DNA of 64,000 nucleotides. Source: Eurosta solidaginis. Its lineage: Eukaryota; Arthropoda; Insecta; Diptera; Tephritidae. The stretch lies in contig NC_090321.1 of NCBI RefSeq assembly GCF_040869045.1, positions 73,875,183-73,939,182 of the forward strand. The letters are read 5' to 3'. Below, piece by piece: positions 20,107-48,813 of this stretch. The position numbers and the translations under genes were made by a program. The notes below the pieces were generated by a model that was not told where the DNA came from, ran no database searches, and saw only the letters and a program-made list of their open reading frames with translations. Each line of letters begins with the position of its first letter. Position 1 is the first letter of the stretch.

Positions 20107-20421
20107 TCTTTCCAAAATAACTGTTCTCCAAATTATTGTGATTGGCTGTTGGATATCGTGCGAGTTACGGAATTTTGTAAAACGGAAAATTTTTTTGGCT
20201 AAAGTCGCGTACAGTTGCCGCGAAATAGAAAAATTTTGTAATTTTGCTAAAATAGATATCGTGCCGTCAAAAGAAAATTGAGTGATTGTTTAAAAATTGT
20301 CGTACGTGCCCGTAAAAAATATAATTGTTGTCCACCGCAATTAATACTTATAAAATAATTGGTCTTATTGTCGTCCGAAATTTTGTGTAATAAAATTTAA
20401 TCGCACCGTCTAACACAATAT

Positions 20422-22258: not shown

Positions 22259-24572
22259 GAGCGGACTACTATGGCGAAATTCACCACCAGCACTTCCGGA
22301 CAGTTACGACATGGCGTACAAGCGCTTGCTGGGCATAGAACGCAGGATGAAGGCCGATTCCCGTTTTGCCGCCAAATACAAAGAGGAGATCGACAAATAT
22401 TTGCGCATGGACTATGCCCGAAAGCTGTCTGATGAAGAAGTACGTATGAACTTGAAATTTAATTTTTATTTACCGCATTTTGCAGTTAATAACCCACACA
22501 AGCCAGGGAAAATGAGAGTTGTGTTCGATGCAGCTGCCCTAGTAAATGGCGTATCGTTGAACTCGTGCCTTCTTAAAGGGCCCGAACATGCCAAACCATT
22601 ACTGAACATTTTATTCAAATTTCGTGAAGGGGCAGTTGCAGCCGCAGCCGACATTCGTGAGATGTTCTCGCAAGTACTCATTAACAAGCGAGATCAACAG
22701 GCGCAACGATGTTTATGGCGTGATGGGAACGCAAATCAGCCAGTCGAGCACTTTGTTATGCAGTCTATGGTTTTCGGAGCCATATGCTCACCATGTATAG
22801 CGGAATTTGTCAAAAATAAAAATGCCGAATATTTCCGTCAGCAGTATCCAGAAGCCGCTACAGCCATCGTCGAAAGCCATTATGTTGACGATTTCGTTGC
22901 CAGTTTCAAGAACGAACAAGACGCTGAGCGGATTTGCAATGACATCGTTTACATCCATTCCGAAGGGGTTTTCAATTACGCGGATTTGTATCAAACGTCA
23001 AACGTCCCGCAAGATAACCTGAATGCAGAGCCACACATACCACAGTCTATAAGTCTAGAAAACGGAGTCAGCTATGAAAAGGTATTGGGAATGCGCTGGA
23101 ACACCATGACAGATTCATTTGAGTTTATGCTTAATTTTCACCGAGTTTCAAAAGCCGTTTTAGAAGATCGTGCTCCAAGCAAGCGTGAACTCCTCAGTAT
23201 AGTAATGTCGGTGTTTGACCCATTTGGCATTATCGCCGATTTTGTTTTTTTTTTTTTTGCCAAAATGCTAGTACAAGAAGTGTGGAGACATTCTATCGAG
23301 TGGGACGAAGCGATTCCGAGCAGCCTGAATCACAAATGGTTTATGTGGTGGAGCGAACTAAAACACGTTAATATTGTTAAAGTTAAACGATGGTATTCAC
23401 CGCAGCTTCAATCTACAACTTCCATACAGTTGCACGTAGTGGTGGATGCCAGTCAATCAGCATTCGCAGCGGCTGCGTACTTTCGAATCGCTAGTAGTGA
23501 TGGTTGTGATATCACATTTGTCGCGGGAAAAACCAAAGGCGCCCCAGAAGTTATTATCCGTACCGAGATTGGAATTGCAAGCCGCAGTGTTAGGCGTCCG
23601 AGTTGCGAATTTGGTCACCCAAGGTCACAACGTCCAAGTAAATCAAACATATTTTTGGTCGGATTCGTAAATCGTACTACACTGGGTCAACTCGAAAGAA
23701 CGAAAATTTAAGCCATACATTGGTCATCGCATAGCAGAGATTTTAGCATCAACTAAACCTTCACAATGGCGTTGGATTCAGACCGATAACAATAGCACAG
23801 ACGTCGCCACTCGTCCAAAGTGGCCACCAAAGATTGAGGAGCGTGGGCCATGGTTGTGCGTGGGCCCGAGTTTCTGCTACATTCAGTTGAGGATTGGCCA
23901 GCCACATCTTGCACACATATGCCCGAGCTACCCGAGGAGGAGATTAAGCCAAACCTACATATACAAGCCAAGGTAACTCGTTGTTTACTAAAATTTAATC
24001 GTGTTTCTTCATATTTAAAGATGAAACGGGTAATGGCATGGGTTCTGCGAGCTGCCGACATATTTTTGAAACTACGTAGCACCTATCAGACATGTGATGG
24101 AGGCGGTCTGCAGTCAGAGCTAAGCGCCGCCGAACTTAATAAAGCAGAGATATACATAGTCAAAGCCGTTCAGCGCGAAGTTTACGCAGAAGAAGTATCA
24201 GCCCTATTGAAAGACGAGCAACTCCATAGAGAAAGCAGTATTCGTTCATTAACGCCGTATCTAGACAACGATCAGATCATGCGAATCCAAGGTCGCCTGG
24301 ACGCAGCTACGGTTTTGCCAGTAGAGACCAGAACACCAATTTTAATGCCATCCAAACACATCGTCTCCGAACTCATAATGCGTCAGTATCACGAGCGACT
24401 ACACCTTCAGAATTTCGCATTGACATTGTACGAAGCCCGCCAAAAGTTTTGGTTTACTCATGCCAAGTCGCTGCTGAAGTCCGTGCAACGTACATGCTTA
24501 ACGTGCCACATAGACAGAGCTAAACCAGCATCGCCTCTGATGGGTCAGTTGCCTGAGAAGGCATTCCAATAA
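22242..24572 (+). pseudogene. BEL/Pao RT, RNase H and integrase zinc-binding region (broken)
   Basis: The RT domain has MRVVFDAAA, AAADIREMF and the catalytic SHYVDDFV. A 15-T run at about 23243 inserts extra Phe codons. RNase H begins LHVVVDASQSA, then the frame shifts near 23545 and again near 23850. The integrase H2C2-type zinc region follows (YHERLH...CLTCHIDRAKP) and stops at 24570 in a deletion. Multiple frameshifts make it non-functional. Confidence 0.8.
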
Positions 24573-28856: not shown

Positions 28857-29236
28857 GAGCTTATTCACTGTTGTTGTTGTTGTTGTAGCGATAAGGAAAC
28901 TCCCCGAAGGCCTTGGGGAGTGTTATCGATGCTTAATAGTCCTTTGCCGGATGCAGATCCGGTAGCAAGCCCGACCATCTCGGGAACGATTTGTTATGAC
29001 CACATGCGACCTTCTAAGCCATACCGTCCTCCCACCGCCGAGATCTATGAGGAGTTCGGGGTCGCCAGAGCCTCTGCTGTTAATGAAACAGAATTCGCCA
29101 CGGATGGGTGAGGTTGGCAATTGGTTTGGAGAAGCTATATATTGCGCTAGCAACCGCCTAAAAGGGTTGCGGTACACAACCCCTTGAATCTATTTAGTAT
29201 TTTAGTCGCCTCTTACGACAGGCATATCTACCGCGG

Positions 29237-29273
29237 CACAGTGTTTCGTGTAGAACAAGCTAGCTGGACAAAA
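29237..29273 (+). repeat. Transib left TIR (RSS-like)
   Basis: Heptamer CACAGTG (29237-29243), a 24-bp spacer (29244-29267), then ACAAAATTA (29268-29276), which matches the RSS nonamer ACAAAAACC at 6 of 9 positions. The first 37 bp equal the right TIR. Confidence 0.85.
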
Positions 29274-29988
29274 TTATTTTATGAGATTTTCCGTTTCATA
29301 TGCAGTCATTTATTACAACTACGTCATTTTTTCAGCCATATCTTTTTTTTTATTTTTTTCCAAAATTTTACTTCATATGCATATGACATTTGCTTATTTC
29401 ATATACAGTAACTCATGTGAATAAGTGACATAGATCCAAAAAAATTTAAAGGACTTAAGAATATTACTTTGTTGTACTTAAATTGAATGGACTACAAATC
29501 TCAATACTCTAAAAAATTCTAAGAATTCCGAAAAAAAATTAAAATTTTTTATGAAAATTCGTCGAATTTTTCAAACATTTTTTAAATATAATTTATTTTT
29601 TGTTATCGATCGTGACAAATTTTCTTATGTGAAATTAGTTAAAATAAATTTGCGAAAGCGAAAATTGTAAGAATTGTCCAAAAAGGGGTGTCTACTTATT
29701 TATGTGAGTGACTGTACATATGTACATACATATTTTGTATTTGTTTGAGTATTTATCCTGGTATACAATTTTTACAAAATTATTTTACAGTACCAGCCAG
29801 GAATGTAAAAGTGAATTACAATAATAATAATAACAATGTAAATAATTAAATTAATTATGTGAAAATCACTTATTACAAAAACTTTAAAGTAAAGTATCAT
29901 ACAAAGTAGAAAAGACAACAGATTTAAACTAAATAAAACCCGATCCAACAAAAAGTTGTAGGGTAGGTTATCTTTTATAATTATGTTA

Positions 29989-31470
29989 TTATTCGGTATC
30001 ATCACTTTCATTCGATGAGTCACTTGTGGAATAGTCATGAGCATCAGCAACACTACTGTGAAAGCTTGAAACAACTGGGGTATTTATTGACTCCTCAACA
30101 TTATCGGGGGACAGTAAATTTAAGACTTCTGAAGTCAGACTTTTAAATTTTTTCTTATGTATCTCCCTAAAACTGTTAACTAAAGGATCCGATGTTATAA
30201 GCCACATATTCATAAGATCTCTATTCGTGGCTTCACGCGACTGCTTTTGTGTGTTAACATCCCTGAATCGTCTCAAATCTTTTTTTCCGGCTTCCTGGAC
30301 TTCCTGTGCTTCCTCAGAAAGTTGACCAATAGGTAAAATTGCTGATTTTATAATATCAGTACTATGCACTAAGATTTTATGAACTGTAACAGGCATATTA
30401 ATCTATGATTAGTTTTTTAGTCTCGACCGCACATTTTTCAAATCTTTGGATATCGGTTGTTTCTTTAGAAAAAATAAATTTAATTGGACGACAATACATG
30501 GTAGAAGAAGGTCGAGGATTCTGCCAAACAATGTTACCTTTTTCATCCTGTAATTGAAGAGGAAAAACTCATCAGTGTCAGAGCTGCATGTAAACTTTTG
30601 CTTATATGTGCTATGGCCAGAGCTTCCATCGCAACCCTACTTGCTGATTACAGTATACGTCAAGTTTGTAGGTAATAAACTAACAAAAACTTCTTGATTT
30701 GCTAAAACTAAACGCTCAACAGTTTTATCTAATACGGACTGGACTTTAATTTCCGCACGTGTTTCACTCACATCAATTTCATTTGGATAGCATTCTGCCT
30801 TAGCTTTTCTTAGACTATAAAATGATGGATAAACCTTATGGCCTGCCTTGATGCTCCACTTCCGAGTCGTTCTGTACCCATGAGTCGTCGACTTGCTATC
30901 TACGTAGTATGCTAAAGCTTCTACATTGCTCAAGCATCTTGCGTCTGGCTCACATGTCATCTTTTTGCCGGATATTTGAGTGGTTTCCTGTGGTTTTTTT
31001 TATAATGTTAGCAACATTTCTGTTGCCGGACATACGCGTTGATACTTCTGCCGCATAAAGTAACTCACCAGGACTTCTAGATTGCAAGAGGTCATCAACT
31101 CGACGCCGTTTGGTTTTTTCACTGCAGCTAACAAAGTCCTTTCGTCTTCCGGGGCCGGGGTTGCCTGAAGAAGTGGTTGGTTTGTCTGATGCCAACTTTG
31201 AATCCAGCGTTATTGTAAATGTGAAATCTGGACACAAAAGCCACTCCGAGTTTTTATTCAAAAATCGCTCCTTATGTCTTCCAGAAGTGTTCCACTTTTG
31301 ATCCAGCTTCGACGAATATGCCGACATTTGTAGGCTTAAACTTTTTATCGAATACTCGGCTGATTCGCTTAAATCGTACTTAAGTACAACAAAACTCAAT
31401 AATTCTTTATATCTGGTTTCCTTCGAATGTTGAACCCAAATGTCAAAAAACTCCGTTCTAACTAAACTAA
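29989..31470 (-). pseudogene. RAG1-like / Transib transposase relic
   Basis: Read on the minus strand. A probable exon starts near 31470 (FFDIWVQHSKETRYKELLSF). Then come a Lys/Arg-rich part with RRKDFVSCSEKTKRRRVDD, a frame change near 30955, AECYPNEIDVSETRAEIKVQ, a stop near 30637, GCDGSSGHSTYKQKF (candidate first catalytic Asp, compare RAG1 CDGMGD) and WQNPRPSSTMYCRPIKF (compare RAG1 KPNSELCCKPLCL). After a jump at about 30400-30425 there is PIGQLSEEAQEVQEAGKKD and a basic LRRFRDVN, which parallels the RAG1 segment around its catalytic Glu. The middle region with the second catalytic Asp is absent. Inactive by deletion, stops and frameshifts. Alternative: another DDE family with similar ends. 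Confidence 0.65.
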
Positions 31471-32015
31471 ACTGCTTTGTGTTGTTGATTTTCCGACAGG
31501 GTGAATGGTTGATGATTGTTGTGCTGGCATCTTAAGTGTCGTTGATGGTTCTGATTTGTGATCAGTTGTGCAGTATTTATATTACATTCAGGTATTGGCG
31601 TAGATGCTACCAAATGGGGTTGTTTTGTGTAGCGTTCCTGTGTGGTTTTACCTGCATTAGGATTGCTTTGTATGTACCTGTTTTTATGCCTTGGTGACTG
31701 GTGCGGTAGGTTGTGGCAGGTTGAAGTCAGTGATCTTCACCTTTTTGCTTTTGGTGTGCTCTTGTTGACCATGCGCATTTTTTTTGTGTGTTTTATGGCT
31801 ACGTGTTTGTTCCCTGTACCTGGGAATTGGTTTTGCCGTTTGTAGATCAGCTTTAAAGGTTCAAATATCTCGTCGGAGCTGGTACGTACATACATCCTAT
31901 TTTATATGTAGAGATAACTAAATCTACAAAAAAAAAAAATTAAAAATAGATGTGCAAAGAATTCGCAATGGTTTTTTCTTTCGACTATTAAAGAATACTT
32001 GCGACTATAACATAT

Positions 32016-32687
32016 TGTTACGAATATTAGCAAAACTAAGGAGTGCTGCCAGCTCTAAGCCGATCTAAGCAGTAACGTGAATGCACATCAATAATTCAAT
32101 CATTATGTATCTACATAAACGAATCAATAATTGCGTCTACACATATGTACACATTCCGACGAGCAACATTTACATACAAGGCAGCGAGAGATGAGATGTC
32201 ACACACCGATGAATTTACTTATACGCTTATGTGTTTGCGGGAGACTGTAAACTACAAACACATGCATATACCTTATCTGAGTTGTCACAAGAGAGAGCAA
32301 TAATTTGTGCACGTAGTTGTGGCTGGCGATTTTGTAGCCGAAACAACTAGTAACTTCTGGAAATCGAAGAGCCTAGAAGTATGCAGCGTAAACTATAAAA
32401 GCGATGCAGGCGAGTAAGAAGTAATTCAGTTTGATTTGAATTGTCAAGCAGTTACGAGTAAGACGATATCTAGCGAGCAATAGCACTATTATTTTGAAAG
32501 TCAGTTTCCTTTAAGATATGAGTTTGGTTATTAAGCTATTCGTTGCACAGTTTGAGTGTTATTGTGAAGTATTTTAATAAAGGCCATTTTTCCGTTATTC
32601 AATATTGGAGTTATTTATTCAACAGTTTAGCGATACGATCCTAGCAAAAGGGCAAATAAGAGGATTTGCAAATAAAAGTTCGTTACA
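32016..32687 (+). repeat. gypsy-type LTR 1
   Basis: 672 bp, TGTTACGAA...TTCGTTACA. Includes the TATA-like CTATAAAAGC at about 32394. Followed by ATTGGTGTCAGAAG, the probable primer-binding region. The same length and 2-bp state (CGCTTATGTGTT) as LTR 3. Confidence 0.92.
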
Positions 32688-32738
32688 ATTGGTGTCAGAA
32701 GAGGAATTGTTGAATAAATTCTAGAGGACAACAAGGAC

Positions 32739-35249
32739 ATGGCAAAGTTAAGTGAATTGAAGATCCCGCAACTGAAGAAGGAGTTGGAGAGCCGTGGATT
32801 GAATACAAGCGGCGTTAAACTCGAACTTCAGGCACGGCTACGAGAAGCAATGGAAGCAGAAGGAATTGATGTGGAAGAGCATGTCTTTCATCTTGATGGC
32901 GAGGAGACAACAAAAATTGAAGAGAAGAACGAAACATCGCAGACGGTTACCAGTACAGACTTGAACATGATTTTAGCTGCAATATCTGCTCAAACATCGA
33001 CAGTGTCATCTCAACTGGCAGAACAGCAGACATATATGGAATCGCAGGAGAACCGTATAACATCCAAGATGGAAGAACAGAAGACATATATGGCATCACA
33101 ACTAGAATCGCAGGAGACACGCATAACATCCAAGATTGAAGCACAAGAAACGCGTATGTCAGAAATGTCGACACAGATTACATCGAAGATTGAAGCACAG
33201 GAAACGCGTATGTCAGAAATGTCGACACAGATTACATCGAAGATTGAAGCACAAGAAACGCGTATGGCAGAAATGTCGACACAGATTACATCAAAAATGG
33301 AGACACAACTGAAAGCACAAGAGGCACGCATAACAGTACAACTCGAAGCACAAGAGGCGCGTATATCATCAAAACTCGAAGCACGTATGGACGAGAAAAT
33401 AACGCAGTTTGAGGAAAAAATCGAAGCCGAGGTGGATGCTTTGAGAGGTCGTATACAAGAGTTGCAATTAAACCGCCCAGCTGTTTCAGCAAGCAATACA
33501 AAGGTAAAAACACCATCCTTTGACGGTTCTGTTCCTTTCCAGGTCTTTAAGCTACAGTTTGAGAAGACCGCAGCAGTGAACAACTGGAATGCGGAAGATA
33601 AAGTTGCTGCACTATTCGTGGCATTGAAGGGGCCAGCAGCGGAAATTCTACAGACGATTCCCGAAGGAGAGCGGAACAATTATGAAGCATTGATGGCTGC
33701 TGTAGAACGACGTTATGGAAGCGAGCATAGGAAACAAATATTCCAAATTGAGTTGCAAAACCGTCACCAAAGAGCGAATGAGACTTTGCAGGAGTTTGCC
33801 TCGGATGTTGAAAGGTTAGCTCATCTCGCAAATGAGGACGCACCCGTGGAATACACTGAAAGGGTAAAGATTCAGAGCTTTATAAATGGCATACGGGACG
33901 TCGAAACAAAGCGAGCTACATACGCAAACCCAAAGCCAACATTCGCAGAAACGGTGTCACAAGCTCTGATTCAAGAAACAGCGTCGCTTCTGTGTAAGCC
34001 AGTTTTCAAAGCACGCCGTGTGGAAGTAGAAAGGCCAGAGTGGGTAGACGCAATATTGGAGGCACTGAAAGGATCGCAAAAGCGAAGTGAAAAAGTTATC
34101 AAATGCTTCAAATGCGGGAAGTCCGCTCACATAGCACGTCATTGCGATCTTGGTCTTAATAGTTCCAACAATGTGGGTGGCCGTAAACGCAAAGCTGGAG
34201 GAGATGAGCAAGAGCGAGTAAGAGGTAGAGAGCTAGATCCAGCTATTGAATGCCCTGTGATATCTGTGTCGCAAATTGGAAGGAAATCAAGCAGTCTTAC
34301 CGTCAGAGGGAATGTGGATGGCAAAGAACGAATACTGACTGTAGATACGGGCGCATCTCATTCCTTGATCCGATCTGACTTGGTCAACAGGAGAGTAAAA
34401 CCGTTACCTGGAGCAAAGTTGCGTACGGTCACTGGCGAGTATAACCAAGTTCAGGGAGAAGTGATATGTGAAGTATTGATTGGGAAGGTCATGGTCCTAC
34501 ACAAATTTGTTGTGGCGGAGATTGTTGATGAAGTTATATTGGGAGTAGATTTCTTGGTTGACCATGACATCAAGATCGATATGCAGAGAAGGGTGATGCG
34601 TTATGAGAACCAAGATGTGCCACTTAACTTTAGTTTGGAAAAAGGGTTCAGCAGTAATCGGGTACTGGTGGAGAAGACTCGACGAAGGCCACGGAAGTCG
34701 AAGGCAAAGGTTGATAGATCGAATGGGCCAAATAAATCAAAATCAAAAGTACCTGCGAGAGAAACACTGGCATTGACAAAACCTAAAAGACGCAGGAAAA
34801 TGAAGCAACGAATTTTCGAGAAGGAATGCGAGGGTAGTTTCAATCCAGAGCGCACTACTGTGGGGAAACGTGGGAACGATACTGATTATGCAAAGCAAAT
34901 CCGTCCAGCGCAAGCTCTACGAAGTAGTTCATCGGCCAAACAACAGAGTGTAAAGGAACGAACCAGGGTATTGAGTGGTACGATGAAACACAGGTACCAT
35001 GAGAACAATAATTCGAAAAGTTTCTTGGCGGGAGATTTGGTACTGTTATACAACCCTCACCGGCGGAAAGTTGTTCCATCCAAATTTCGGTGCAGTTGGG
35101 AAGGCCCGTACAAGATTGTGAAGAAGCTCAGTGATACCATCTACCGCATACAAAGCATTGAGATACCACGGAGTAGAAGAGTGGTACATTTGGCGATGCT
35201 AGCAGCGTTTAGATCGAGAGATTTGTCTGATCGGGACGATCAGACTTAG
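32739..35249 (+). CDS. Gag-protease-integrase-tail polyprotein, unit 1
   Basis: 836 residues, no stops. Order: an N-terminal SAP-like motif (residues 1-38, KLSELKIPQLKKEL); a long coiled coil (about 60-240) with near-identical repeats of TSKIEAQETRM; a retrotransposon Gag capsid-like domain (about 255-430); a CCHC zinc knuckle CFKCGKSAHIARHC (about 456-470); a retropepsin-type protease with DTGASHSL (about 534) and ILGVDFL; a basic linker; and a C-terminal piece resembling the end of gypsy integrase (MKHRYHENN to VVHLAMLAAF, about 748-825). RT, RNase H and the integrase catalytic core are missing, with the frame kept open across the joint. Differs from unit 2 by Ala for Gly in the zinc knuckle and Gln for Leu nearby. 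Would need RT in trans to move. Confidence 0.88.
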   Translation: MAKLSELKIPQLKKELESRGLNTSGVKLELQARLREAMEAEGIDVEEHVFHLDGEETTKIEEKNETSQTVTSTDLNMILAAISAQTSTVSSQLAEQQTYMESQENRITSKMEEQKTYMASQLESQETRITSKIEAQETRMSEMSTQITSKIEAQETRMSEMSTQITSKIEAQETRMAEMSTQITSKMETQLKAQEARITVQLEAQEARISSKLEARMDEKITQFEEKIEAEVDALRGRIQELQLNRPAVSASNTKVKTPSFDGSVPFQVFKLQFEKTAAVNNWNAEDKVAALFVALKGPAAEILQTIPEGERNNYEALMAAVERRYGSEHRKQIFQIELQNRHQRANETLQEFASDVERLAHLANEDAPVEYTERVKIQSFINGIRDVETKRATYANPKPTFAETVSQALIQETASLLCKPVFKARRVEVERPEWVDAILEALKGSQKRSEKVIKCFKCGKSAHIARHCDLGLNSSNNVGGRKRKAGGDEQERVRGRELDPAIECPVISVSQIGRKSSSLTVRGNVDGKERILTVDTGASHSLIRSDLVNRRVKPLPGAKLRTVTGEYNQVQGEVICEVLIGKVMVLHKFVVAEIVDEVILGVDFLVDHDIKIDMQRRVMRYENQDVPLNFSLEKGFSSNRVLVEKTRRRPRKSKAKVDRSNGPNKSKSKVPARETLALTKPKRRRKMKQRIFEKECEGSFNPERTTVGKRGNDTDYAKQIRPAQALRSSSSAKQQSVKERTRVLSGTMKHRYHENNNSKSFLAGDLVLLYNPHRRKVVPSKFRCSWEGPYKIVKKLSDTIYRIQSIEIPRSRRVVHLAMLAAFRSRDLSDRDDQT

Positions 35250-35260
35250 GTGGAGGGCAG

Positions 35261-35930
35261 TGTTACGAATATTAGCAAAACTAAGGAGTGCTGCCAGCTC
35301 TAAGCCGATCTAAGCAGTAACGTGAATGCACATCAATAATTCAATCATTATGTATCTACATAAACGAATCAATAATTGCGTCTACACATATGTACACATT
35401 CCGACGAGCAACATTTACATACAAGGCAGCGAGAGATGAGATGTCACACACCGATGAATTTACTTATACGCTTGTGTTTGCGGGAGACTGTAAACTACAA
35501 ACACATGCATATACCTTATCTGAGTTGTCACAAGAGAGAGCAATAATTTGTGCACGTAGTTGTGGCTGGCGATTTTGTAGCCGAAACAACTAGTAACTTC
35601 TGGAAATCGAAGAGCCTAGAAGTATGCAGCGTAAACTATAAAAGCGATGCAGGCGAGTAAGAAGTAATTCAGTTTGATTTGAATTGTCAAGCAGTTACGA
35701 GTAAGACGATATCTAGCGAGCAATAGCACTATTATTTTGAAAGTCAGTTTCCTTTAAGATATGAGTTTGGTTATTAAGCTATTCGTTGCACAGTTTGAGT
35801 GTTATTGTGAAGTATTTTAATAAAGGCCATTTTTCCGTTATTCAATATTGGAGTTATTTATTCAACAGTTTAGCGATACGATCCTAGCAAAAGGGCAAAT
35901 AAGAGGATTTGCAAATAAAAGTTCGTTACA
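35261..35930 (+). repeat. gypsy-type LTR 2 (middle)
   Basis: 670 bp; lacks 2 bp present in LTRs 1 and 3 (CGCTTGTGTT instead of CGCTTATGTGTT near 35471). Preceded by the purine-rich AGGTGGAGGGCAG. Shared by both units, serving as 3' LTR of unit 1 and 5' LTR of unit 2. Confidence 0.92.
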
Positions 35931-35981
35931 ATTGGTGTCAGAAGAGGAATTGTTGAATAAATTCTAGAGGACAACAAGGAC

Positions 35982-38492
35982 ATGGCAAAGTTAAGTGAAT
36001 TGAAGATCCCGCAACTGAAGAAGGAGTTGGAGAGCCGTGGATTGAATACAAGCGGCGTTAAACTCGAACTTCAGGCACGGCTACGAGAAGCAATGGAAGC
36101 AGAAGGAATTGATGTGGAAGAGCATGTCTTTCATCTTGATGGCGAGGAGACAACAAAAATTGAAGAGAAGAACGAAACATCGCAGACGGTTACCAGTACA
36201 GACTTGAACATGATTTTAGCTGCAATATCTGCTCAAACATCGACAGTGTCATCTCAACTGGCAGAACAGCAGACATATATGGAATCGCAGGAGAACCGTA
36301 TAACATCCAAGATGGAAGAACAGAAGACATATATGGCATCACAACTAGAATCGCAGGAGACACGCATAACATCCAAGATTGAAGCACAAGAAACGCGTAT
36401 GTCAGAAATGTCGACACAGATTACATCGAAGATTGAAGCACAGGAAACGCGTATGTCAGAAATGTCGACACAGATTACATCGAAGATTGAAGCACAAGAA
36501 ACGCGTATGGCAGAAATGTCGACACAGATTACATCAAAAATGGAGACACAACTGAAAGCACAAGAGGCACGCATAACAGTACAACTCGAAGCACAAGAGG
36601 CGCGTATATCATCAAAACTCGAAGCACGTATGGACGAGAAAATAACGCAGTTTGAGGAAAAAATCGAAGCCGAGGTGGATGCTTTGAGAGGTCGTATACA
36701 AGAGTTGCAATTAAACCGCCCAGCTGTTTCAGCAAGCAATACAAAGGTAAAAACACCATCCTTTGACGGTTCTGTTCCTTTCCAGGTCTTTAAGCTACAG
36801 TTTGAGAAGACCGCAGCAGTGAACAACTGGAATGCGGAAGATAAAGTTGCTGCACTATTCGTGGCATTGAAGGGGCCAGCAGCGGAAATTCTACAGACGA
36901 TTCCCGAAGGAGAGCGGAACAATTATGAAGCATTGATGGCTGCTGTAGAACGACGTTATGGAAGCGAGCATAGGAAACAAATATTCCAAATTGAGTTGCA
37001 AAACCGTCACCAAAGAGCGAATGAGACTTTGCAGGAGTTTGCCTCGGATGTTGAAAGGTTAGCTCATCTCGCAAATGAGGACGCACCCGTGGAATACACT
37101 GAAAGGGTAAAGATTCAGAGCTTTATAAATGGCATACGGGACGTCGAAACAAAGCGAGCTACATACGCAAACCCAAAGCCAACATTCGCAGAAACGGTGT
37201 CACAAGCTCTGATTCAAGAAACAGCGTCGCTTCTGTGTAAGCCAGTTTTCAAAGCACGCCGTGTGGAAGTAGAAAGGCCAGAGTGGGTAGACGCAATATT
37301 GGAGGCACTGAAAGGATCGCAAAAGCGAAGTGAAAAAGTTATCAAATGCTTCAAATGCGGGAAGTCCGGTCACATAGCACGTCATTGCGATCTTGGTCTT
37401 AATAGTTCCAACAATGTGGGTGGCCGTAAACGCAAAGCTGGAGGAGATGAGCTAGAGCGAGTAAGAGGTAGAGAGCTAGATCCAGCTATTGAATGCCCTG
37501 TGATATCTGTGTCGCAAATTGGAAGGAAATCAAGCAGTCTTACCGTCAGAGGGAATGTGGATGGCAAAGAACGAATACTGACTGTAGATACGGGCGCATC
37601 TCATTCCTTGATCCGATCTGACTTGGTCAACAGGAGAGTAAAACCGTTACCTGGAGCAAAGTTGCGTACGGTCACTGGCGAGTATAACCAAGTTCAGGGA
37701 GAAGTGATATGTGAAGTATTGATTGGGAAGGTCATGGTCCTACACAAATTTGTTGTGGCGGAGATTGTTGATGAAGTTATATTGGGAGTAGATTTCTTGG
37801 TTGACCATGACATCAAGATCGATATGCAGAGAAGGGTGATGCGTTATGAGAACCAAGATGTGCCACTTAACTTTAGTTTGGAAAAAGGGTTCAGCAGTAA
37901 TCGGGTACTGGTGGAGAAGACTCGACGAAGGCCACGGAAGTCGAAGGCAAAGGTTGATAGATCGAATGGGCCAAATAAATCAAAATCAAAAGTACCTGCG
38001 AGAGAAACACTGGCATTGACAAAACCTAAAAGACGCAGGAAAATGAAGCAACGAATTTTCGAGAAGGAATGCGAGGGTAGTTTCAATCCAGAGCGCACTA
38101 CTGTGGGGAAACGTGGGAACGATACTGATTATGCAAAGCAAATCCGTCCAGCGCAAGCTCTACGAAGTAGTTCATCGGCCAAACAACAGAGTGTAAAGGA
38201 ACGAACCAGGGTATTGAGTGGTACGATGAAACACAGGTACCATGAGAACAATAATTCGAAAAGTTTCTTGGCGGGAGATTTGGTACTGTTATACAACCCT
38301 CACCGGCGGAAAGTTGTTCCATCCAAATTTCGGTGCAGTTGGGAAGGCCCGTACAAGATTGTGAAGAAGCTCAGTGATACCATCTACCGCATACAAAGCA
38401 TTGAGATACCACGGAGTAGAAGAGTGGTACATTTGGCGATGCTAGCAGCGTTTAGATCGAGAGATTTGTCTGATCGGGACGATCAGACTTAG
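35982..38492 (+). CDS. Gag-protease-integrase-tail polyprotein, unit 2
   Basis: 836 residues with the same layout as unit 1 (SAP-like motif, coiled coil, capsid-like domain, zinc knuckle, DTGA protease, integrase C-terminal remnant). Here the zinc knuckle reads CFKCGKSGHIARHC, the canonical form with Gly, and the residue after GGDE is Leu. The same deletion joint between protease linker and integrase tail shows the pol loss predates the duplication. Probably the more ancestral-like of the two frames at the zinc knuckle. Confidence 0.88.
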   Translation: MAKLSELKIPQLKKELESRGLNTSGVKLELQARLREAMEAEGIDVEEHVFHLDGEETTKIEEKNETSQTVTSTDLNMILAAISAQTSTVSSQLAEQQTYMESQENRITSKMEEQKTYMASQLESQETRITSKIEAQETRMSEMSTQITSKIEAQETRMSEMSTQITSKIEAQETRMAEMSTQITSKMETQLKAQEARITVQLEAQEARISSKLEARMDEKITQFEEKIEAEVDALRGRIQELQLNRPAVSASNTKVKTPSFDGSVPFQVFKLQFEKTAAVNNWNAEDKVAALFVALKGPAAEILQTIPEGERNNYEALMAAVERRYGSEHRKQIFQIELQNRHQRANETLQEFASDVERLAHLANEDAPVEYTERVKIQSFINGIRDVETKRATYANPKPTFAETVSQALIQETASLLCKPVFKARRVEVERPEWVDAILEALKGSQKRSEKVIKCFKCGKSGHIARHCDLGLNSSNNVGGRKRKAGGDELERVRGRELDPAIECPVISVSQIGRKSSSLTVRGNVDGKERILTVDTGASHSLIRSDLVNRRVKPLPGAKLRTVTGEYNQVQGEVICEVLIGKVMVLHKFVVAEIVDEVILGVDFLVDHDIKIDMQRRVMRYENQDVPLNFSLEKGFSSNRVLVEKTRRRPRKSKAKVDRSNGPNKSKSKVPARETLALTKPKRRRKMKQRIFEKECEGSFNPERTTVGKRGNDTDYAKQIRPAQALRSSSSAKQQSVKERTRVLSGTMKHRYHENNNSKSFLAGDLVLLYNPHRRKVVPSKFRCSWEGPYKIVKKLSDTIYRIQSIEIPRSRRVVHLAMLAAFRSRDLSDRDDQT

Positions 38493-38503
38493 GTGGAGGG
38501 CAG

Positions 38504-39175
38504 TGTTACGAATATTAGCAAAACTAAGGAGTGCTGCCAGCTCTAAGCCGATCTAAGCAGTAACGTGAATGCACATCAATAATTCAATCATTATGTATCT
38601 ACATAAACGAATCAATAATTGCGTCTACACATATGTACACATTCCGACGAGCAACATTTACATACAAGGCAGCGAGAGATGAGATGTCACACACCGATGA
38701 ATTTACTTATACGCTTATGTGTTTGCGGGAGACTGTAAACTACAAACACATGCATATACCTTATCTGAGTTGTCACAAGAGAGAGCAATAATTTGTGCAC
38801 GTAGTTGTGGCTGGCGATTTTGTAGCCGAAACAACTAGTAACTTCTGGAAATCGAAGAGCCTAGAAGTATGCAGCGTAAACTATAAAAGCGATGCAGGCG
38901 AGTAAGAAGTAATTCAGTTTGATTTGAATTGTCAAGCAGTTACGAGTAAGACGATATCTAGCGAGCAATAGCACTATTATTTTGAAAGTCAGTTTCCTTT
39001 AAGATATGAGTTTGGTTATTAAGCTATTCGTTGCACAGTTTGAGTGTTATTGTGAAGTATTTTAATAAAGGCCATTTTTCCGTTATTCAATATTGGAGTT
39101 ATTTATTCAACAGTTTAGCGATACGATCCTAGCAAAAGGGCAAATAAGAGGATTTGCAAATAAAAGTTCGTTACA
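38504..39175 (+). repeat. gypsy-type LTR 3
   Basis: 672 bp, same length and 2-bp state as LTR 1. Ends TTCGTTACA, followed by the target duplication ATAT. Confidence 0.92.
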
Positions 39176-39578
39176 ATATGTAAAATTTAGCCCGGATGTC
39201 CGCGGATGTATGTAACTTTTTTGTCCCTAAAGTTAAAAATATAAAGACAAAATACCTTTCCTTCTTAATAACGGAATGCTACATATATTGAAAATACTCT
39301 AATTGCGAAAGAATTACTATTAAAAAATTTTACTTACCTTCGAGCTTAGAATCCATTAAAAAAAATTATATAAAAGTGTTCACTTAAAAGAAATATGAAG
39401 CTTAATATTCAACAAGAATTTTGCAAATTAATCAATGCATTTTACGGCCACTCCTGATTTCTTACTTCAATTACTCAATATATATGAACAAAAATATAAA
39501 AAAAAAAAGCAAAAATCCCGCTATTTTGTTTGTTTTCTTTCATTTCTCATTACACTTTTCTTGGAATAAGAACTTTGT

Positions 39579-39615
39579 TTTTGTCCAGCTAGCTTGTTCT
39601 ACACGAAACACTGTG
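39579..39615 (-). repeat. Transib right TIR (RSS-like)
   Basis: On the minus strand: CACAGTG (39615-39609), a 24-bp spacer (39608-39585), then ACAAAAACA (39584-39576), matching the RSS nonamer ACAAAAACC at 8 of 9 positions. The closest RSS look-alike of the pair. Confidence 0.87.
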
Positions 39616-39660
39616 CGCGGGTGTATTCTACCCCCCACGCTTGGTGAGAGCTTATTCACT

Positions 39661-40221: not shown

Positions 40222-43200
40222 TTATGCCCGATAGTTCATGAATGAGGAGCTGGAAATGTAAAGAAAATAAATAAAAATTACACAAAAGAATGAATTAAAA
40301 TTTGGACTCAATAAATATTAATTTTCTTTCTAAAATCATGACACAAGCTTTTGACTTACCCCCCAAACATAGGCTTTGGTGCATTTGTTGGATTATTTGT
40401 GGTTTGTGCCAAATTACCAAAAGATAAACCTGTATCCGCTGAGCCCAAAGCTTCAAAAATATTACTGCCTTGAGCGGTAGGAGAGCCAAATGAGCCTGCA
40501 GTGGGTGTAGTAAATGAACCAAATCCTTTGGGGCTTCCAAAAGAAGGTGCACCTCCAAAGCTGGGTTGAGCGCCAAAAGCTGGTGGACTACCAAAAGTCG
40601 GTGCACTTCCAAAGACGGGGCGCGAAAATGCTCCTCCTGCTTGTGGCTGTTGTGTAGGCGAACCAAACCCAGTGCTAGCAACTGATGTAGCTCCCTGTGA
40701 GAATGAACTAAATGGCGAAGTGGCCGGGGCGCCAAAACCGCTCGCTGGCGAACCGAATACATTTGATTGTTGCTGTTGGTGTGCATCACCTGCAGAGCCA
40801 GCACTGCCAAATATGGATCCTCCTGGAGCCACTGTCGGTTTAGCGGCCGAGCCAAAAGCTGAGCCCACAAAACTAAAACCAGCTGCTGTTGGTGATGTTG
40901 TCTCTGGTTTGCTAGCAGCGACTGCTGCTGCGAAAATGCTACCACTCGACTGACCCAAAGCCGATTGACCGAAAATGGAACCACCGCCCCCTGCCGCTGT
41001 CGATGTTGGTGAACCAAAAATATTTACATTTTCCGGAGGTTTAGCAGCAGCAACCCCCGCAAATAAAGACCCGCCACTGTTTTCTCCACTCTTAGCAGCA
41101 ACATTTCCAAAGATGGAGCCACTAGTGTTCTCAGCTGGTTTAATATTAGCTGCACTGGCGAAAATCGATGTTGTTGCATTACCCATTTTAGCGGCTGTGT
41201 TACCAAATATGGAACCAGCAGAAGAATTGGGGCTTGTGGGAATGACTCCTGTAGCACCACCACCAAATATGCCACCAGGGGGACAGGCAAATCCGCTACC
41301 GGCGTTACCAAAAATATTTCCTCCGCTAGGCGGGGCTGTGCTACCCAATGACATGCTGCCAAATGCTGCTTCATTAGTTGTGATTGGTTGTGTAACATTA
41401 TCTGATTTTACTGCTAGAGTTGGTTGTTGGCTTGAATTGCCAAATAATGAATCACCAGGTGCTTTAGTAGCGTCAATAGTTGAAAATAATGGGCTTGTAG
41501 TGTTGCTGGTGGGTTCTGCGGATGCAGTTGAGGGTACGGCTGTTGCTGCTGTTGGTGATGGCGTTGCTTCTACAGCTTTGGGGGTTAATGCTGGTGTTGC
41601 TGCCGCAGCAGTGGGTGTTGCAGCTTCAGCCGTTGGGGTTGCAGCGCCTGTTGATATTACGGCGGCAGGTGTTGGTGCGGAAGTTGAGCTTGTACTTGAT
41701 GTTGCTGTCGATGTAGTTGTTTCAGCTTTTACTGTAGCATTTACACTGTTTGCACTATCGGCGGTGTTCGACGGTGCTTGATTTTGGGATGATGGCACTT
41801 GCTTAAATATGGTTGAGTTACTAAATGAAAAAGCAGGCGTGCCAACGCCACTGCCACTTAAGGAAACGGTCGTAGACATTGTTATTGGCGTTGCTGTTGT
41901 TGTGCTAGATGTCAAAGAGTTGCTGCTGCTGACAGCTGTGCTGCCAAAGGCAGGCACATTTATGCTGGTAGCCCCGAAAGGCGAAAATTGTGCCGTTGAC
42001 GTTGTTACACCTTTACCACAGAATGGTAATGGCGATGATGCGGTAGTTGTTGCGGCAACAGTGCTACCTTTTGACTCTGACATTGACTGAAAAGCGCCCC
42101 GTGGATTATTTTCATCGTTTGATGTAAAAGAAAATACGTTTTCTTCTTTAGGCTTTTCGGCTTCTAAAAGAGAGTTAAAAAGAAAATTGTTAGACAAGGA
42201 GTGGAAAATAAATATAACATTGTTAATCCACACCAAAACGCAACATTTACGAAATTAAAAACAAAAAAAATCATTGATTTATGAAATGCAACCAAGCATT
42301 TGTTACGTTGATTTGAAGCTTAAGTGAAACAATTACTCTATAGTTTCAATTAACGTAAAGATTTCCACTACCTTTTGTTAAGATAGTAATGTCGGTTATC
42401 TGGAGATTATATAATTGTTCCAAACATTTTATTTTTTCTCATTTGTATGTGGACTAAAACGTAACATACCACTTTCATCTTTAATAGCTTTTTATGGCTA
42501 AAGCACCATGTTAATTTAAAACACAATTATTCAATTAGTTTTATGCTTATTAAGGCGGTTTACCACCATACATAACAAAAACAACTTTTTGGGATCAACC
42601 ATAAAATAAACTTGGCCAATTTTCTCGAAATTACGTTCATTTTGGTATGGACCTCCACACTTGTTTTTGTATACCTTTTGCTGTTGGTTTACAGATATTC
42701 AGAGATTTTAAAACTATATCATCTGCAGTCCTTTGATTTTGCATTGTGTCACTATTGCTGGTGCTAGAAATATGTGCCGGCTCCACATAAGTGGGGTTTG
42801 CTTGCGTATAGCCTTTTTGCGCTTGCGTGTCTTCAGAGGCATTTTTTTCCAGGCTAAAACTAGCAAAAAAATAGATTGGTAAAATGTATATTAAAATATT
42901 TACCCTGCTTACGAACCTTGTATCTGCGAATGGGCCTACATTTTTCTGCTCATGTTGTTTATTAAAAACGTTTGGTTGCATTGTGGTCGAGCTAATTGCA
43001 ATTGGTAAACCTGTTGGTTTTTGTGCAGTATCAGCTTTTGCAGCAATATTTAAATCTGTTGGTGAATTAAAAGTATTTCCAAAACTAAATGTTTTTTGAA
43101 TGGGATTCGGTTGATCCACAGTATTATTTGATTGAGGATTGAATATATTAATTGCATTTACTGTCGGTTGTCCGAAACCAACGAAGCCCTTTGAAGCTAC

Positions 43201-46200
43201 ATTAAATATATTAGACTGCGCAGATTTGGCCATTTCTGCTCCATCACTTTTTGCTGTGAATGAAAAATTTGCTGCAGGGCCTGAAGGAGCTTTCTCTTCC
43301 GCTTGGTTTTTCGAAAACTGTGCTTTATTAGATGTTGAAACCATATTTGGCTTAACATCTGCAACATCAGTTTTAGCAGTATTAGTATTTGTGCCAAATT
43401 TCAAGAGCTCTGGTGGGCGTTCACCGCTTTTGGTTCCAGCAAATATGTTAGCACCTGAAAAGAGTGTTGTTTGGGGTGGTGATTGTCGCTGTGTGACATC
43501 TTTTGGTAATTGAAAGTTTTGTTGTAAGCTACCAAAAGGCGTAGTAGCTGGAATTGGTTGATGATGACGCTGTTGCGGAGGCAAGTGACGAAATTGGTTT
43601 TGAAACTGTGTTTCAGTCATTTGTTTAGGTTGCGGCTGTTTTGGTTTTAATGTGGGGTTCGACTTCTCTTTCTCAACTGCTTTACTTGCCTTATCTTGAA
43701 TCTCTTTTCTTTTGATTAATTGCTTTGTTTCTAAAATAACCTCAGATGTTAACTCAACACGATTTGGACGCTGAGGTTTTATTATCGTTATTTTTCCTTG
43801 CTGCCTGGTAAAGTTTCGCAATGCATTTAACTTGTTCTCTGATAATTTATTGCTTTTCGCATCCGTCATATTGTTTATGCTCATCGATAAAATTGAATCA
43901 GCCAATGACATCATGGCGCTAAATTGAAATTTGTTTAAGAAATAATAGTGATAGTGAAAGAGCTTAAGTACCGAATACACAGTCACCAGTAATAATGCTA
44001 AAATTTGTAAATAAAGAAGTTGGTTGGAAATGGTTCAGTGAAAAAAAAAAATTCTCGTCAATAGATTGTGAAGGCACGCTAAATTATTTGTGGTAAAAAA
44101 AGAACTGCAGCACCACTTCGTGTTTGGTTGTATTCCGGAAAATGGTCTGCCATATCAGCAACTCTCCCGCTTTTAAAGAGCTATGCATTACGAGTATATT
44201 CTAGGAACCTTACTTAAACCGCTGGCCGTTCGTTTTCACGTTGGCATTATCTACATCAACCTAGGCATTCAAGACGCAGCTTCTATGCAAGGCATGACAA
44301 AAACTGTTGGCACAATAGCAGAAAAAGTACATTCATTTGGAATGTGGATACAACGACTCAGTAAATTCTTGATGGTCCAGACCTGTTGAAACTATGAAAG
44401 CGTTTTGTTTTCGTTACTGCAACTACTTAAAAACAATAAGAAAATAAGTCGAATGGACTACCGGTTGTTGTTGTTGTTGTTGTAGCGATAAGGACACTCC
44501 CCGGAGGACTTGTGGAGTGTTATCGATGTTGATGGTCCTTTGCCGGATGCAGATCCGCCACATTCCGGTACCAAGCCCGACCATCTCGGGAACGAGTCTA
44601 TCGTTCGTTATCATATCGTATCGCTAGCCTCGCGAAACCTGACATTGTCACCGACCAAATCATCGACGACCTTATTTACAACATGGACGCTCCAAATGTC
44701 GACCATATTGAACATCCACGGCGATGGCACTACGCTACCGACTGTCTTACACCCCAAAATCTTGGGTGTGACGTTCGATGAGGATCTACATTTTGGAGAG
44801 CATGCAGCCGCTATTGTACTGAAAATTCAGAGACGTAATAAAGTCCTTAAATCTCTTGCTGGCAGTACTTTGGGTAAAGATAAAGAAACCTTATTACCAC
44901 ATACAAAGTAATTGATCGGCCGATTGCATGATACGCGTCCCCGATATGGTCGCCAAGCCTGAAGACTACTCACTGGAAGAAGATACAGGCCTGCAAAAAT
45001 ACCGCCCTCAGAACCGCTACGGGCTGTCTTCTTATGTCCCCAGAACATCATCTACACAATGAGGCGAGAGTGCTCCCCTTAGAGTCAGAAATGAAATGCT
45101 GAACAAACAGTTTCTGTTGAATACCCAGAAACCTGGGTATCCCAACATACATCTGATTGATGAGGCTACACCTCCCAGGGGCTTAAGGGGTCATCTCCGT
45201 AAGCATTATGAGGAAATACGGCACCTGAGAATACAGTCGTATGAATATAAAAAGCACAAGCAGGTCCTCAATGAAATCCACAAACAGACGTAGGACCTCT
45301 ATGCCAAGAATTGCCGGGTGAATCCAGTACTTAAAGAACAATACCCAAAACTAGCAGAGGAGTAACGCACTCTCCCTAGGTCGCAACTATTGGATGAGGT
45401 GAAGCACTGCTACAACAACAACAACAATCTCGGGAACGATTTGGTATGACCACATGTGACCTTCTAGGCCATACCGCCGTCCCACCCCCTAGATCCATGA
45501 GGAGTTCGAGGTCGCCAGAGCCTTGGAAGTTATTAAAAAATCGATTGCTAGATTTGTATTGAAAATGCGGATAAAAATTCAACCCACCTAATATAAAAGG
45601 AAATAATAGTGATAGTTCAAAATATTCAAACTACCATTTAATTGTTGTTAAACTATGCCCAACTACTTTTAACTTACCCATCTGATTTAAAACTTTGCGT
45701 GCCATCTTTACGCCAATCATTGCTTAATCTACCACAACCCAGTTCTCTTTGTTTAATAATAGATTTTATGTAATGCAATTTTGTTTGCTGTTGTGTAATA
45801 AGATTTTTCAATTTTGTCATTTGTTGATAAATGCCATCTAAGCATGGTATACGCATATGATATTTCGAATTGCGGCGTACCATATCTTGATAACAGGACC
45901 ATTGCGAGTCTATTTGTTGTTCAAGATTTTTCATCATACTTTGATTAATGACAAGATAATTTTGCAATCCCTTCAATTGACGCTGACTAATACAGTCGTA
46001 TAATGTTAAATATTTTATGCCAACTTCACTGTAATATACAAATGAAATACATACACAGTTGAATATGTCGAGCATACAAAAACTGCGGTACAAAAAATCT
46101 TACTCTGGATTTTTATACATTTCTAATTTTGATCTACACTCATTTAACATTTCATATGATTCTGTAAGCGAGTTACGCAAGTCTTGAACATCCATAATAA

Positions 46201-48813
46201 AATCACGTTCATTTGCTTGTTCAATAATTTCTTGTAAGTTTATCAAACGTTTACTATAACCTTTCATGGTGCTAACATCGTCATTCTAAAAACATCAAAA
46301 CAAGAATGAAAGCTCAAAGTAAGAATATTTATATTGTCATAAAGTGTTACTCTACTCACTAGTACGAGTTTTGACTTTTGGCCCAATTGTTTAATTTCTT
46401 TTTCTAAGGCTGCAATTTGCATGAAGATCATTTGTTGTATTACACTATTTGTTTCGTTTAAATTAAGTAGTTGTGATTTTGATTTTCCTGCAGTATCCTG
46501 TGCCTGCTGAGATTTTTGCTGCATTTGTTGTTGTTGTATTGATGGTGGCGCGAATTCAGGTGATACAGTATATAAAGGCTTGAAAACCTCGGTCGGCTGT
46601 GCCGGTTTTGAAGTAACTGCAGCCACGCTTGTGTGTGCTGTAGGTTTGGCTAAACAAAAATTTATATTTATATATAACATTTCAAGTTCTATGCTGTCCT
46701 TAATTTAAAACTAACTTATTAAATTACGCTGTGTATCATTTGAGGTAGTTACCACTCCGAAACTCAAACTTTGTGGTTTTTGTTCCCATCCAGCTGAAAA
46801 TAAAGCTTTGTTTGCTGGTGCGGCAGATGCCGGTATACTCTGATTGGTTACATTCGTTTGAATGTTACTTTGTGGCGGTGGAGTATGGAATGGTGGGGGT
46901 GGTGGTGGCGTCTCAATTGTTGGTAGCGGTGAATGTTCACTGCTCTCCTGGAATAGAATATTAAAAATTGATAAAATCAATTCGAAACAAGAGCAACATT
47001 TTAAAGAGCATTGTCTAAGGTATGAAGCATTTAAATGCGAATAAAGAAAACAAAAACAATTACAACATATTTCAATGTTCTATCACCTAGCCAAGACTAT
47101 CTTGTAACATAACAAGACGGGATTTCGATTTTACCAACAGAGCAAACCAAATATTTTGTTTGTTTTTGAAAGTGTTATATCTTACCCCACGTTATTGCTT
47201 CACGCAATTCAATACACATTTACTACTCGACAAAATTTACAAGTAACATTTTACTTTGACGTACTACTGCTGATAAAAAATCCAAAAATGCAGGATGATT
47301 CAGTTTCTTATGATAAGAACTCACCTCTACACTTTGAGCAGAGTTAGACTTCGTTAAGCTTTTTTCATCCAAGCGACTGAACTTTGCTATAGCATAGTTT
47401 TTTGACGCTGGTGGTGAGCAGATATTCAAAGCGCTTGGTGTTAAATTCAAAAAGTTAAAACATAGTAAATGCCCATTTGTTGAAAGTACATGAATTACGG
47501 GCATCGTTTGCAATTTTCTTTCGCCTACAGTTAACTCGTGAGTTGGAGAGGTGTCTAAAGCTAAACCAATTGGATAAGTTTCATCGCTAGCTTCAGTGAG
47601 TGGCATTTCAATACGTGCTTCATCCAATAGCATATAATGTACCCATTGTGGTTGATCACTACTATCCTTAGTACCCAAAAGACCAATTTCAACGCCATTT
47701 GCAGATGTTACTAATAGTAAATTCCATTGTGCAATGTGCATAAATGTAATTTGTTGTTTTCTTGGTTCGGAGCCACTATAGCACACATCATTGTAATTAA
47801 TATAGACAGGTGTACCACCTTTAGGTGCATTTACTATATACATATTCGGCAGTGTACCCTCACCATGTTGCAAAAAGCTTACAACAAACTGAAAAGTCGA
47901 TAACCAGTGTAATGATATAGTATCAAATGGACCAGGATGTACATCCGGCGGGCAAATAATGATTTTTGCAGGTGTAAGATCGGGTTTAAATTGTTGTAAC
48001 TTTCCATTTGGATGACCGAGCACGATTTGCTTGCCTTTTGGCGACCAGCAGCCACATTGTATTTGTTGATTTTTTATTGAACGCATTTCCATTGCACCAC
48101 CATCTTTGAGGGTATATAATACAAAGCTACCATTACTTAGCAATACTCCAATCACTGCCGGTAATACTGGATTCCACAAGAGCTGCAAAGCATACACATT
48201 CTGATCGGGTAAACGTATACTATATAAAATCTTTATATCCTGCAATGAAGAAAATTTATTTAAAGAGCTCGTACTATTAGCAACACGGACTTACAGATGT
48301 AGCAAATGATGGTACATGATACATTTCTAAAACTCCATAACCTTGTACAGTATAATTAACAGCCAACATTGAACCATCTGCATTACATGCTATTGTATTT
48401 GGTACGTTAGCTAATTTGGTGGTCCGGTAATGTACCTGTTGGCCCTTAGACTTGGCATATATAACATCCGGTAGTATAAGAGCTTTTGCATAAAATAAAC
48501 AGATCGATCGATATGTAATCTCATGTAGTACATCAGAACACTTACCATGCATCTCAGGTGCATTTGGATTACCCACAAAGAGTAGGCCATGATTGCTGGC
48601 GCATGCCAATAAGTTGATATGGTCACGCAACTTACCATTATCATTAAAAACTTTGTGCTTGCTTTGTAACTTAAATTGTATATCCTAATCAGAATGAAGA
48701 TTAATTAATGACCTTGTGGTTTGTATGTCAATTCATGCAGATTTCATTTACAGGTAATGAGCTTAAAATATACTTACAGTAACATCTACGGAAGCGGGAC
48801 ATTGTTGCGCCAT
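40222..48813 (-). CDS. Nup214: Nuclear pore protein Nup214 (FG nucleoporin)
   Basis: Cytoplasmic-face nucleoporin that works with Nup88 in mRNA and protein export. Exons 5' to 3': 48778-48813, 48295-48684, 47325-48239, 46716-46947, 46360-46649, 46104-46285, 45678-46028, 42917-43918, 42675-42859, 40360-42163, 40222-40249. Total 5415 nt, 1804 residues, all phases fit. Start MAQQCPASVDVT. The N-terminal ~440 residues form the beta-propeller (exons 1-3). Then come a Pro-rich stretch, a Gln-rich coiled-coil region (exons 5-7), and a long Ser/Thr/Ala-rich C-terminal half with many FG, SIFG and FGS repeats (exons 8-10). The final exon is only 28 nt and adds SSFMNYRA. A 57-bp intron (42860-42916) is a multiple of three without stops. 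Intron 43919-45677 contains LINE/SINE insertions. Confidence 0.93.
42164..42674. other. Nup214 intron 9
   Basis: 511 bp of AT-rich intron between exons 9 and 10 of Nup214. The donor AAAAG|GTATAC and the acceptor TCTTTTAG make GAA across the joint. No repeats recognised. Confidence 0.6.
44020..44462. other. Part of Nup214 intron 7, unclassified
   Basis: Less AT-rich than the surrounding intron. It holds an open plus frame of 68 codons from the ATG at 44183 (HVGIIYINLGIQDAASMQG) without a recognised domain. Possibly decayed transposon coding sequence. Confidence 0.3.
44467..45530 (-). mobile_element. SINE-like element split by a jockey-like element
   Basis: Halves at 44467-44595 and 45427-45530. 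The (TTG)n start at 44467 marks the inverse (CAA)n tail. The joint sequence ATCTCGGGAACGA is duplicated either side of the jockey-like insert (44583-44595 and 45427-45439). The 5' end is truncated near CCAGAGCC. Confidence 0.75.
44596..45426 (+). mobile_element. jockey-like LINE, 5'-truncated copy in Nup214 intron
   Basis: Encodes the end of an RT-type ORF2: PTVLHPKILGVTFDEDLHFG (44750-44800), KSLAGSTLGKDKETLL, RNEMLNKQFLLNTQKPG, PPRGLRGHLRKHYEEI. Frame breaks occur near 44912 and 45070. It ends with CTACAACAACAACAACA. A 13-bp target duplication of SINE sequence flanks it. The last coding segment (LSLWSTPVE block) is missing, apparently by internal deletion before the tail. Confidence 0.75.

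Follow-up and report, generated by a model that had tools for sequence, protein, structure and literature searches.

The 64,000-nucleotide window of Eurosta solidaginis DNA analysed here contains, at positions 29237-39615, what is almost certainly a defunct, non-autonomous member of a numerous DNA transposon family of the Transib superfamily, mobilised by a DDE transposase acting at ends that open with CACAGTG, the heptamer of the recombination signal sequences (RSSs) of V(D)J recombination. The Transib identity follows from homology to the transposase of HzTransib (Helicoverpa zea, PDB 6pqn) and, more weakly, to RAG1, and three defining features of the superfamily are present: homology to a DDE transposase, terminal inverted repeats (TIRs) with an RSS-like heptamer opening with CAC, and 5-bp target-site duplications (TSDs) with a bias towards C and G. 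The span is made up of an outer Transib copy of about 3.2 kb and an inner long terminal repeat (LTR) retroelement of about 7.2 kb.

RSS-like ends of the window copy

The two ends carry identical 37-bp TIRs in opposite orientation (29237-29273 on the plus strand and its reverse complement at 39579-39615 on the minus strand), both opening with the heptamer, and since the transposase gene lies on the minus strand, position 39615 is the 5' end of the element and position 29237 the 3' end. At the 5' (right) end the heptamer (39615-39609) is followed by a 24-bp spacer (39608-39585) and then by ACAAAAACA (39584-39576), which agrees with the RSS nonamer ACAAAAACC at eight of nine positions; at the 3' (left) end the heptamer (29237-29243) and a spacer of the same length (29244-29267) are followed by ACAAAATTA (29268-29276), with six of nine positions in agreement. 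At any one fixed position of the window an 8/9 match has a frequency of 0.0004 and a 6/9 match one of 0.02; in the AT-rich stretch beside the left end these values rise to 0.0007 and 0.024. The matches at the two ends cannot be treated as separate observations, since the identical TIR already takes in the first six bases of each nonamer. Comparison of the flanks gives CGCGG as the TSD (29232-29236 and 39616-39620). Even with up to five mismatches allowed, the first 20 bases of the TIR occur nowhere else in the window. The perfect TIRs, the heptamer, the 24-bp spacer, both nonamer matches and the duplication had been called in a first-pass annotation of this DNA, and each was recovered when the window was re-read.

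The coding relic between these ends (29989-31531, minus strand) is broken into several pieces, all on the minus strand. The C-terminal piece (29989-30402), which covers the region of the catalytic Glu and contains SEEAQ, matches HzTransib residues 387-480 (E 3.5e-19) and scores 26.9 bits against the Pfam RAG1 model, above the cut-off of 25, with weak matches to RAG1 chains in the PDB (best E 0.003). The middle piece, before the first catalytic Asp (30637-30999), matches HzTransib residues 9-85 (E 8e-9). The earlier description of the interior as RAG1-like, for which a profile search of the minus-strand translation had been proposed, is thus borne out, with HzTransib as the closer relative. Between these two lies a piece with GCDGSSG and CRPIKF (30409-30636), out of frame with its neighbours and placed by motif comparison with a longer copy from the same genome (L059, described below), and at the N-terminal side a piece with GPGRR and a basic stretch (30953-31531), which profile, motif and model comparisons make a candidate counterpart of the RAG1 nonamer-binding domain (NBD); neither of these two pieces, searched alone against the PDB, gave a match at E <= 10. 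From the alignment of L059 with HzTransib, GCDGSSG contains the first catalytic Asp and SEEAQ directly precedes the catalytic Glu. A stop codon stands just ahead of GCDG, and an internal deletion of about 580 bp (junction at 30453-30457; 576, 582 and 580 bp relative to the longer copies L009, L012 and L020, respectively) removes the second catalytic Asp with its MIDGK motif, which is absent from all three minus-strand frames of the window copy. The copy is incapable of making a working transposase.

A nested LTR retroelement

The LTR retroelement occupies 32016-39175 on the plus strand, outside the Transib proper, as a tandem LTR-internal-LTR-internal-LTR array, and comparison of its flanks reveals its own 4-bp duplication, ATAT (32012-32015 and 39176-39179). 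Its three LTRs (672, 670, and 672 bp) are 99.7-100% identical, and the two internal parts, of 2,573 bp each, differ at two positions. Each internal part contains an 843-residue frame in which SAP, gag-type aspartyl-protease and integrase p58 C-terminal models all score above the Pfam cut-offs, a zinc knuckle doing so in just one of the two frames; no reverse-transcriptase Pfam model was matched at E <= 1 in the frames of the retroelement. The tandem form may have arisen by recombination or by duplication during assembly. The first-pass annotation had treated the full 10.4 kb as one element, and its outer ends stand as described, with only 3.2 kb between them being Transib, split by the 7.2-kb retroelement. 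That the whole span was mobile as one composite Transib, with the LTR sequence as cargo, would agree with the position of the retroelement inside the Transib ends and with the clean outer TSD, but it is highly improbable: we rejected it because the retroelement has its own ATAT duplication and because, in the 18 family copies compared, Transib sequence continues across the insertion point (to within about 15 bp) with no insertion there.

An abundant family with Transib transposase

The genome (1.908 Gb, 569 contigs) was searched with the pattern CACAGTG-N20-26-ACAAAA, and with the reversed pattern as a control, giving 3,487 and 590 matches respectively; the excess of about 2,900 exact-pattern ends suggests a family of perhaps a thousand or more elements. 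Among the 100 matches listed, 72 belong to the window family as judged by eye, and 28 convergent pairs of family ends lie within 12 kb of one another. We fetched 18 of these pairs, by choice, together with six further copies picked for long frames among 150 scored transposase matches. Six of the 18 copies are 2.05-2.17 kb long, five are 3.60-3.76 kb, and the remaining seven vary in length, the longest reaching 4.27 kb. All members of the short group (L010, L011, L013, L017, L018, and L019) have a common deletion junction at window coordinate 31668, which fits amplification of a non-autonomous derivative, and the group looks like just that, its enzyme presumably coming from elsewhere. Matching 5-bp flanks were found in 16 of the 24 copies fetched with both ends, and 15 of the 16 matching pairs read CNNNG. 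The GC-only duplication noted earlier is true of the window copy and of only two matched pairs in 16, and we rejected it as a rule for the family in favour of CNNNG.

One copy, L059, retains a 763-residue frame (stop to stop) between its two TIRs, and this frame matches HzTransib residues 9-482 with an E value of 3.7e-115. Its WGCDG, MIDGK, and SEEAQEARNKD motifs align with D126, D225, and E436, reported as the catalytic residues of HzTransib (PMC6941560), the aligned positions in the HzTransib chain being 109, 208, and 419, each 17 below the published number. L059 has 3,326 bp between its TIRs and flanks, CGTCG and CGCCG, that disagree at a single position; apart from the long frame there is one other of at least 120 residues (149 residues). 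No second long gene is seen among its frames, whereas RAGL (RAG-like) transposons have a convergent RAG1L-RAG2L gene pair, no kelch, PHD or dedicated RAG2 search having been made. A protein search with the L059 frame returned 294 homologues at E <= 0.001, and of the 120 listed a 420-residue Eurosta protein comes nearest (93%), the others reaching at most 66%, and all of those with a named organism are from insects.

The HzTransib matches of the window pieces and of the L059 frame rule out another DDE superfamily. They also bear on whether this could be a RAG-like (RAGL) element, closer to vertebrate RAG than to Transib and having lost its RAG2-like gene, as the match of the C-terminal piece to RAG1 and the RSS-like ends might suggest. 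We consider this most unlikely, since the frame that matches HzTransib so strongly scores only 25.9 bits against the Pfam RAG1 model and finds no RAG1 chain in the PDB at E <= 0.01, and since Transib proteins are described as distinct from RAG1 and RAG1L proteins, with less than 22% identity and no N-terminal non-core region (PMC7204232). The genome-wide search for TIR copies proposed in the first-pass annotation, joined by the copies picked through transposase matches, yielded matching 5-bp flanks, a fixed nonamer position and, in L059, a Transib transposase frame; we found neither of the two outcomes that had been named there as contrary, a transposase of another DDE superfamily, or copies with no fixed nonamer position and TSDs other than 5 bp.

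Conservation of the ends and comparison with other families

To read the ends across the family we anchored on inner sequence, which gave 49 3' ends and 30 5' ends; the sample includes the 18 copies chosen by TIR pattern, counts L052/L059 and L053/L060 twice among the 3' ends, and lacks the diverged 5' end of L059, which the anchor missed. The 3' ends read ACAAAATTA in 47 of 49 cases and the 5' ends ACAAAAACA in 28 of 30. When the count is restricted to copies found only through their transposase, 24 of 25 3' ends and six of seven 5' ends align to the TIR without gaps, and ACAAAA is kept in every one of these (24/24 and 6/6). Each end of the family has its own fixed version of the nonamer, and decay of the window copy was for this reason rejected as the source of the difference between its left and right nonamers.

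Two further Transib families, represented by L027 and L028, were found in the same genome by the pattern containing ACAAAA, and both encode Transib transposases that are broken. L027 (G000:C1:36260297-36263749) has the TSD CCTCG, 22-bp spacers at both ends, and nonamer-like blocks ACAAAAATG and ACAAAAATC; its ends agree at 14 of 22 spacer positions (by eye), and the sole string of at least nine bases common to the first 80 bases of both is GACAAAAAT. A second copy, L065, shows only the 5' end of this family. L028 (G000:C1:56223880-56229193) has the TSD CGACG and a 13-bp TIR, beyond which the sole string of at least nine bases shared by the first 80 bases of its ends is TGGACAAAAATA, which lies 12 bp from the heptamer on the 5' side and 23 bp from it on the 3' side; a common string of that length arose in 4 of 5,000 shuffles, in a test chosen after the string had been seen. 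Because the L028 ends contain other A-rich matches (8/9 at spacer 20 on the 5' side and 6/9 at spacer 12 on the 3' side), a 12/23 arrangement is a possible reading, one of several, and complete ends are seen in one copy only, the partial second copy L066 showing just the 3' end. Another Transib-like protein of E. solidaginis, P0039 (617 residues, NCBI), is 49% identical to the L059 frame.

That a single genome holds families spaced 24/24 and 22/22, and possibly 12/23 as well, is the observation that most deserves to be followed, few as the copies are. The same heptamer and GACAAAA block at a spacing that differs by family could act as an end-pairing code that separates families or ends; we regard this as quite unlikely, and, if true, it would be a spacing code akin to the 12/23 rule of V(D)J recombination, seen in transposons.

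A candidate nonamer-binding domain and a proposed mechanism

Up to about 250 residues of the L059 frame precede the region covered by the HzTransib structure, and the chain in that structure aligns to the profile only from position 182 (of 702) onwards. In an alignment of 42 transposases (L059 and 41 of the 120 homologues listed), GRP followed by a basic stretch occurs within the first 260 residues in 37. According to PMC6941560, the NBD of RAG1 has an AT-hook-like motif, GGRPR, with three helices behind it, and an NBD equivalent with GRP has been reported in Transibs (PMC9435367). Three helices come after the motif in the predicted model of the window N-terminal piece (mean pLDDT 85.7, pTM 0.55).

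The homology, ends, duplication, deletion, and nesting observed in the window copy can be joined in a plausible course of events. A dimer of DDE transposase, presumably supplied in trans by a longer copy, would have bound both 37-bp ends, with the catalytic core recognising CACAGTG and the N-terminal GRP-type domain probably recognising the GACAAAA block 24 bp further in. Cleavage at the heptamers and staggered strand transfer would then have generated the 5-bp CGCGG duplication, the chemistry and the roles of the DDE residues being those of the HzTransib and RAG literature. The copy as it stands has a gene shortened by about 580 bp and broken by stops and frameshifts, and it carries the LTR retroelement, changes that may have come in any order.

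Several observations weigh against this course of events. Conservation across all copies read is 0.988-0.994 in the spacer and inner DNA and 0.994-1.000 in the heptamer and ACAAAA, and, being uniform within the family, it is silent on recognition of the block; we rejected it as an argument for nonamer function. Flanks are unequal in 8 of the 24 copies, including L059, and L059, the copy with the longest frame, has a diverged 5' end that reads ACAAGAACA. The window family carries GRR and not GRP; the match of the family profile to the GGRPR region of RAG1 is colinear with the catalytic parts but weak (domain independent E value of about 10-12); and a fold comparison of the window N-terminal piece gave no RAG1 chain among the 47 matches listed, a result that is not decisive.

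It is conceivable that the element is a Transib in which only the heptamer and adjacent bases are recognised, ACAAAA being a functionless A-rich end sequence. In favour of this, conservation within the family is uniform, L027 and L028 were retrieved by a pattern that contains ACAAAA, and most Transib TIRs, HzTransib among them, are described as having little or no similarity to the nonamer (PMC8289069). We nevertheless hold it to be the less probable explanation, albeit one with a fair claim to attention, as identity between the two ends of the window copy stops directly after ACAAAA, the only strings of nine or more bases common to the two ends of L027 and (beyond the TIR) of L028 are GACAAAAAT and TGGACAAAAATA, respectively, and an NBD equivalent is published for Transibs. 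Taken together, comparison of the ends and of the families speaks for a function of the nonamer-like block.

Relationship to known Transib and RAG systems

HzTransib resembles the window family in its homologous transposase with the same DDE residues, its TIRs, its 5-bp TSD (GCTCG), and its size (3,518 bp), the last two as given in PMC1852546; it differs in its nonamer, as noted above, and in that the solved chain is without a counterpart of the N-terminal GRP/GRR part. Transib families of Drosophila and Anopheles have an RSS-like heptamer and a nonamer-like block in the account of PMC8355894, with symmetric spacers of 20-22 bp as opposed to 24/24 here, a comparison made by description; the same account, reporting Kapitonov and Jurka 2005, gives symmetric spacers for some Transib families and 12/23 asymmetry for a few. 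With the 23-RSS and RAG1 the window family shares an identical CACAGTG, the 8/9 nonamer at one end, and a homologous catalytic C-terminus, whereas its spacer is 24 and not 23, both of its ends are of one spacer class, and these ends belong to a mobile element and are not gene-assembly signals, with no RAG2 partner seen. A spacer of 24 and nonamers of 8/9 and 6/9 place the window ends outside the definition of a 23-RSS, and as a functional equivalent of one they would show a resemblance at most; we do not claim membership.

Ends of this RSS-like kind have been published for Transibs before (by Kapitonov and Jurka 2005, on the account of PMC8355894, PMC7204232, and PMC6941560), as have 5-bp GC-biased duplications and ancestry shared with RAG1 (as set out in PMC8355894, PMC7204232, PMC8289069, and PMC9435367), and with its 8/9 nonamer the window family appears to lie on the RSS-like side of the known Transib range. 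Among the papers searched, none treats Transib together with Eurosta. The special value for RSS origins suggested by the first-pass annotation is a weaker part of its reading, since such ends were known before; the Transib-RAG link was established already, and the window copy alone changes little. What is gained is an abundant Transib family whose nonamer-like block is clear, in which one or more copies keep a long open transposase frame, and which has sister families of other spacing in the same genome. Such a set can be used to ask if recognition of a nonamer, and asymmetry of the 12/23 type, were present in transposons before vertebrates put them to use.

Genomic surroundings

Three likely host genes lie in the window, encoding a DNA ligase N-terminal domain (8827-9378, minus strand), UTP25 (15968-19687, plus strand), and a NUP214-type beta propeller (40359-48290, minus strand), the last with an FG-nucleoporin match at 40359-42254 that is below its cut-off. 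Broken frames of a Pao-type retrotransposon occupy 20401-24569 on the plus strand, one of which (22212-23708) matches Peptidase_A17 and reverse transcriptase.

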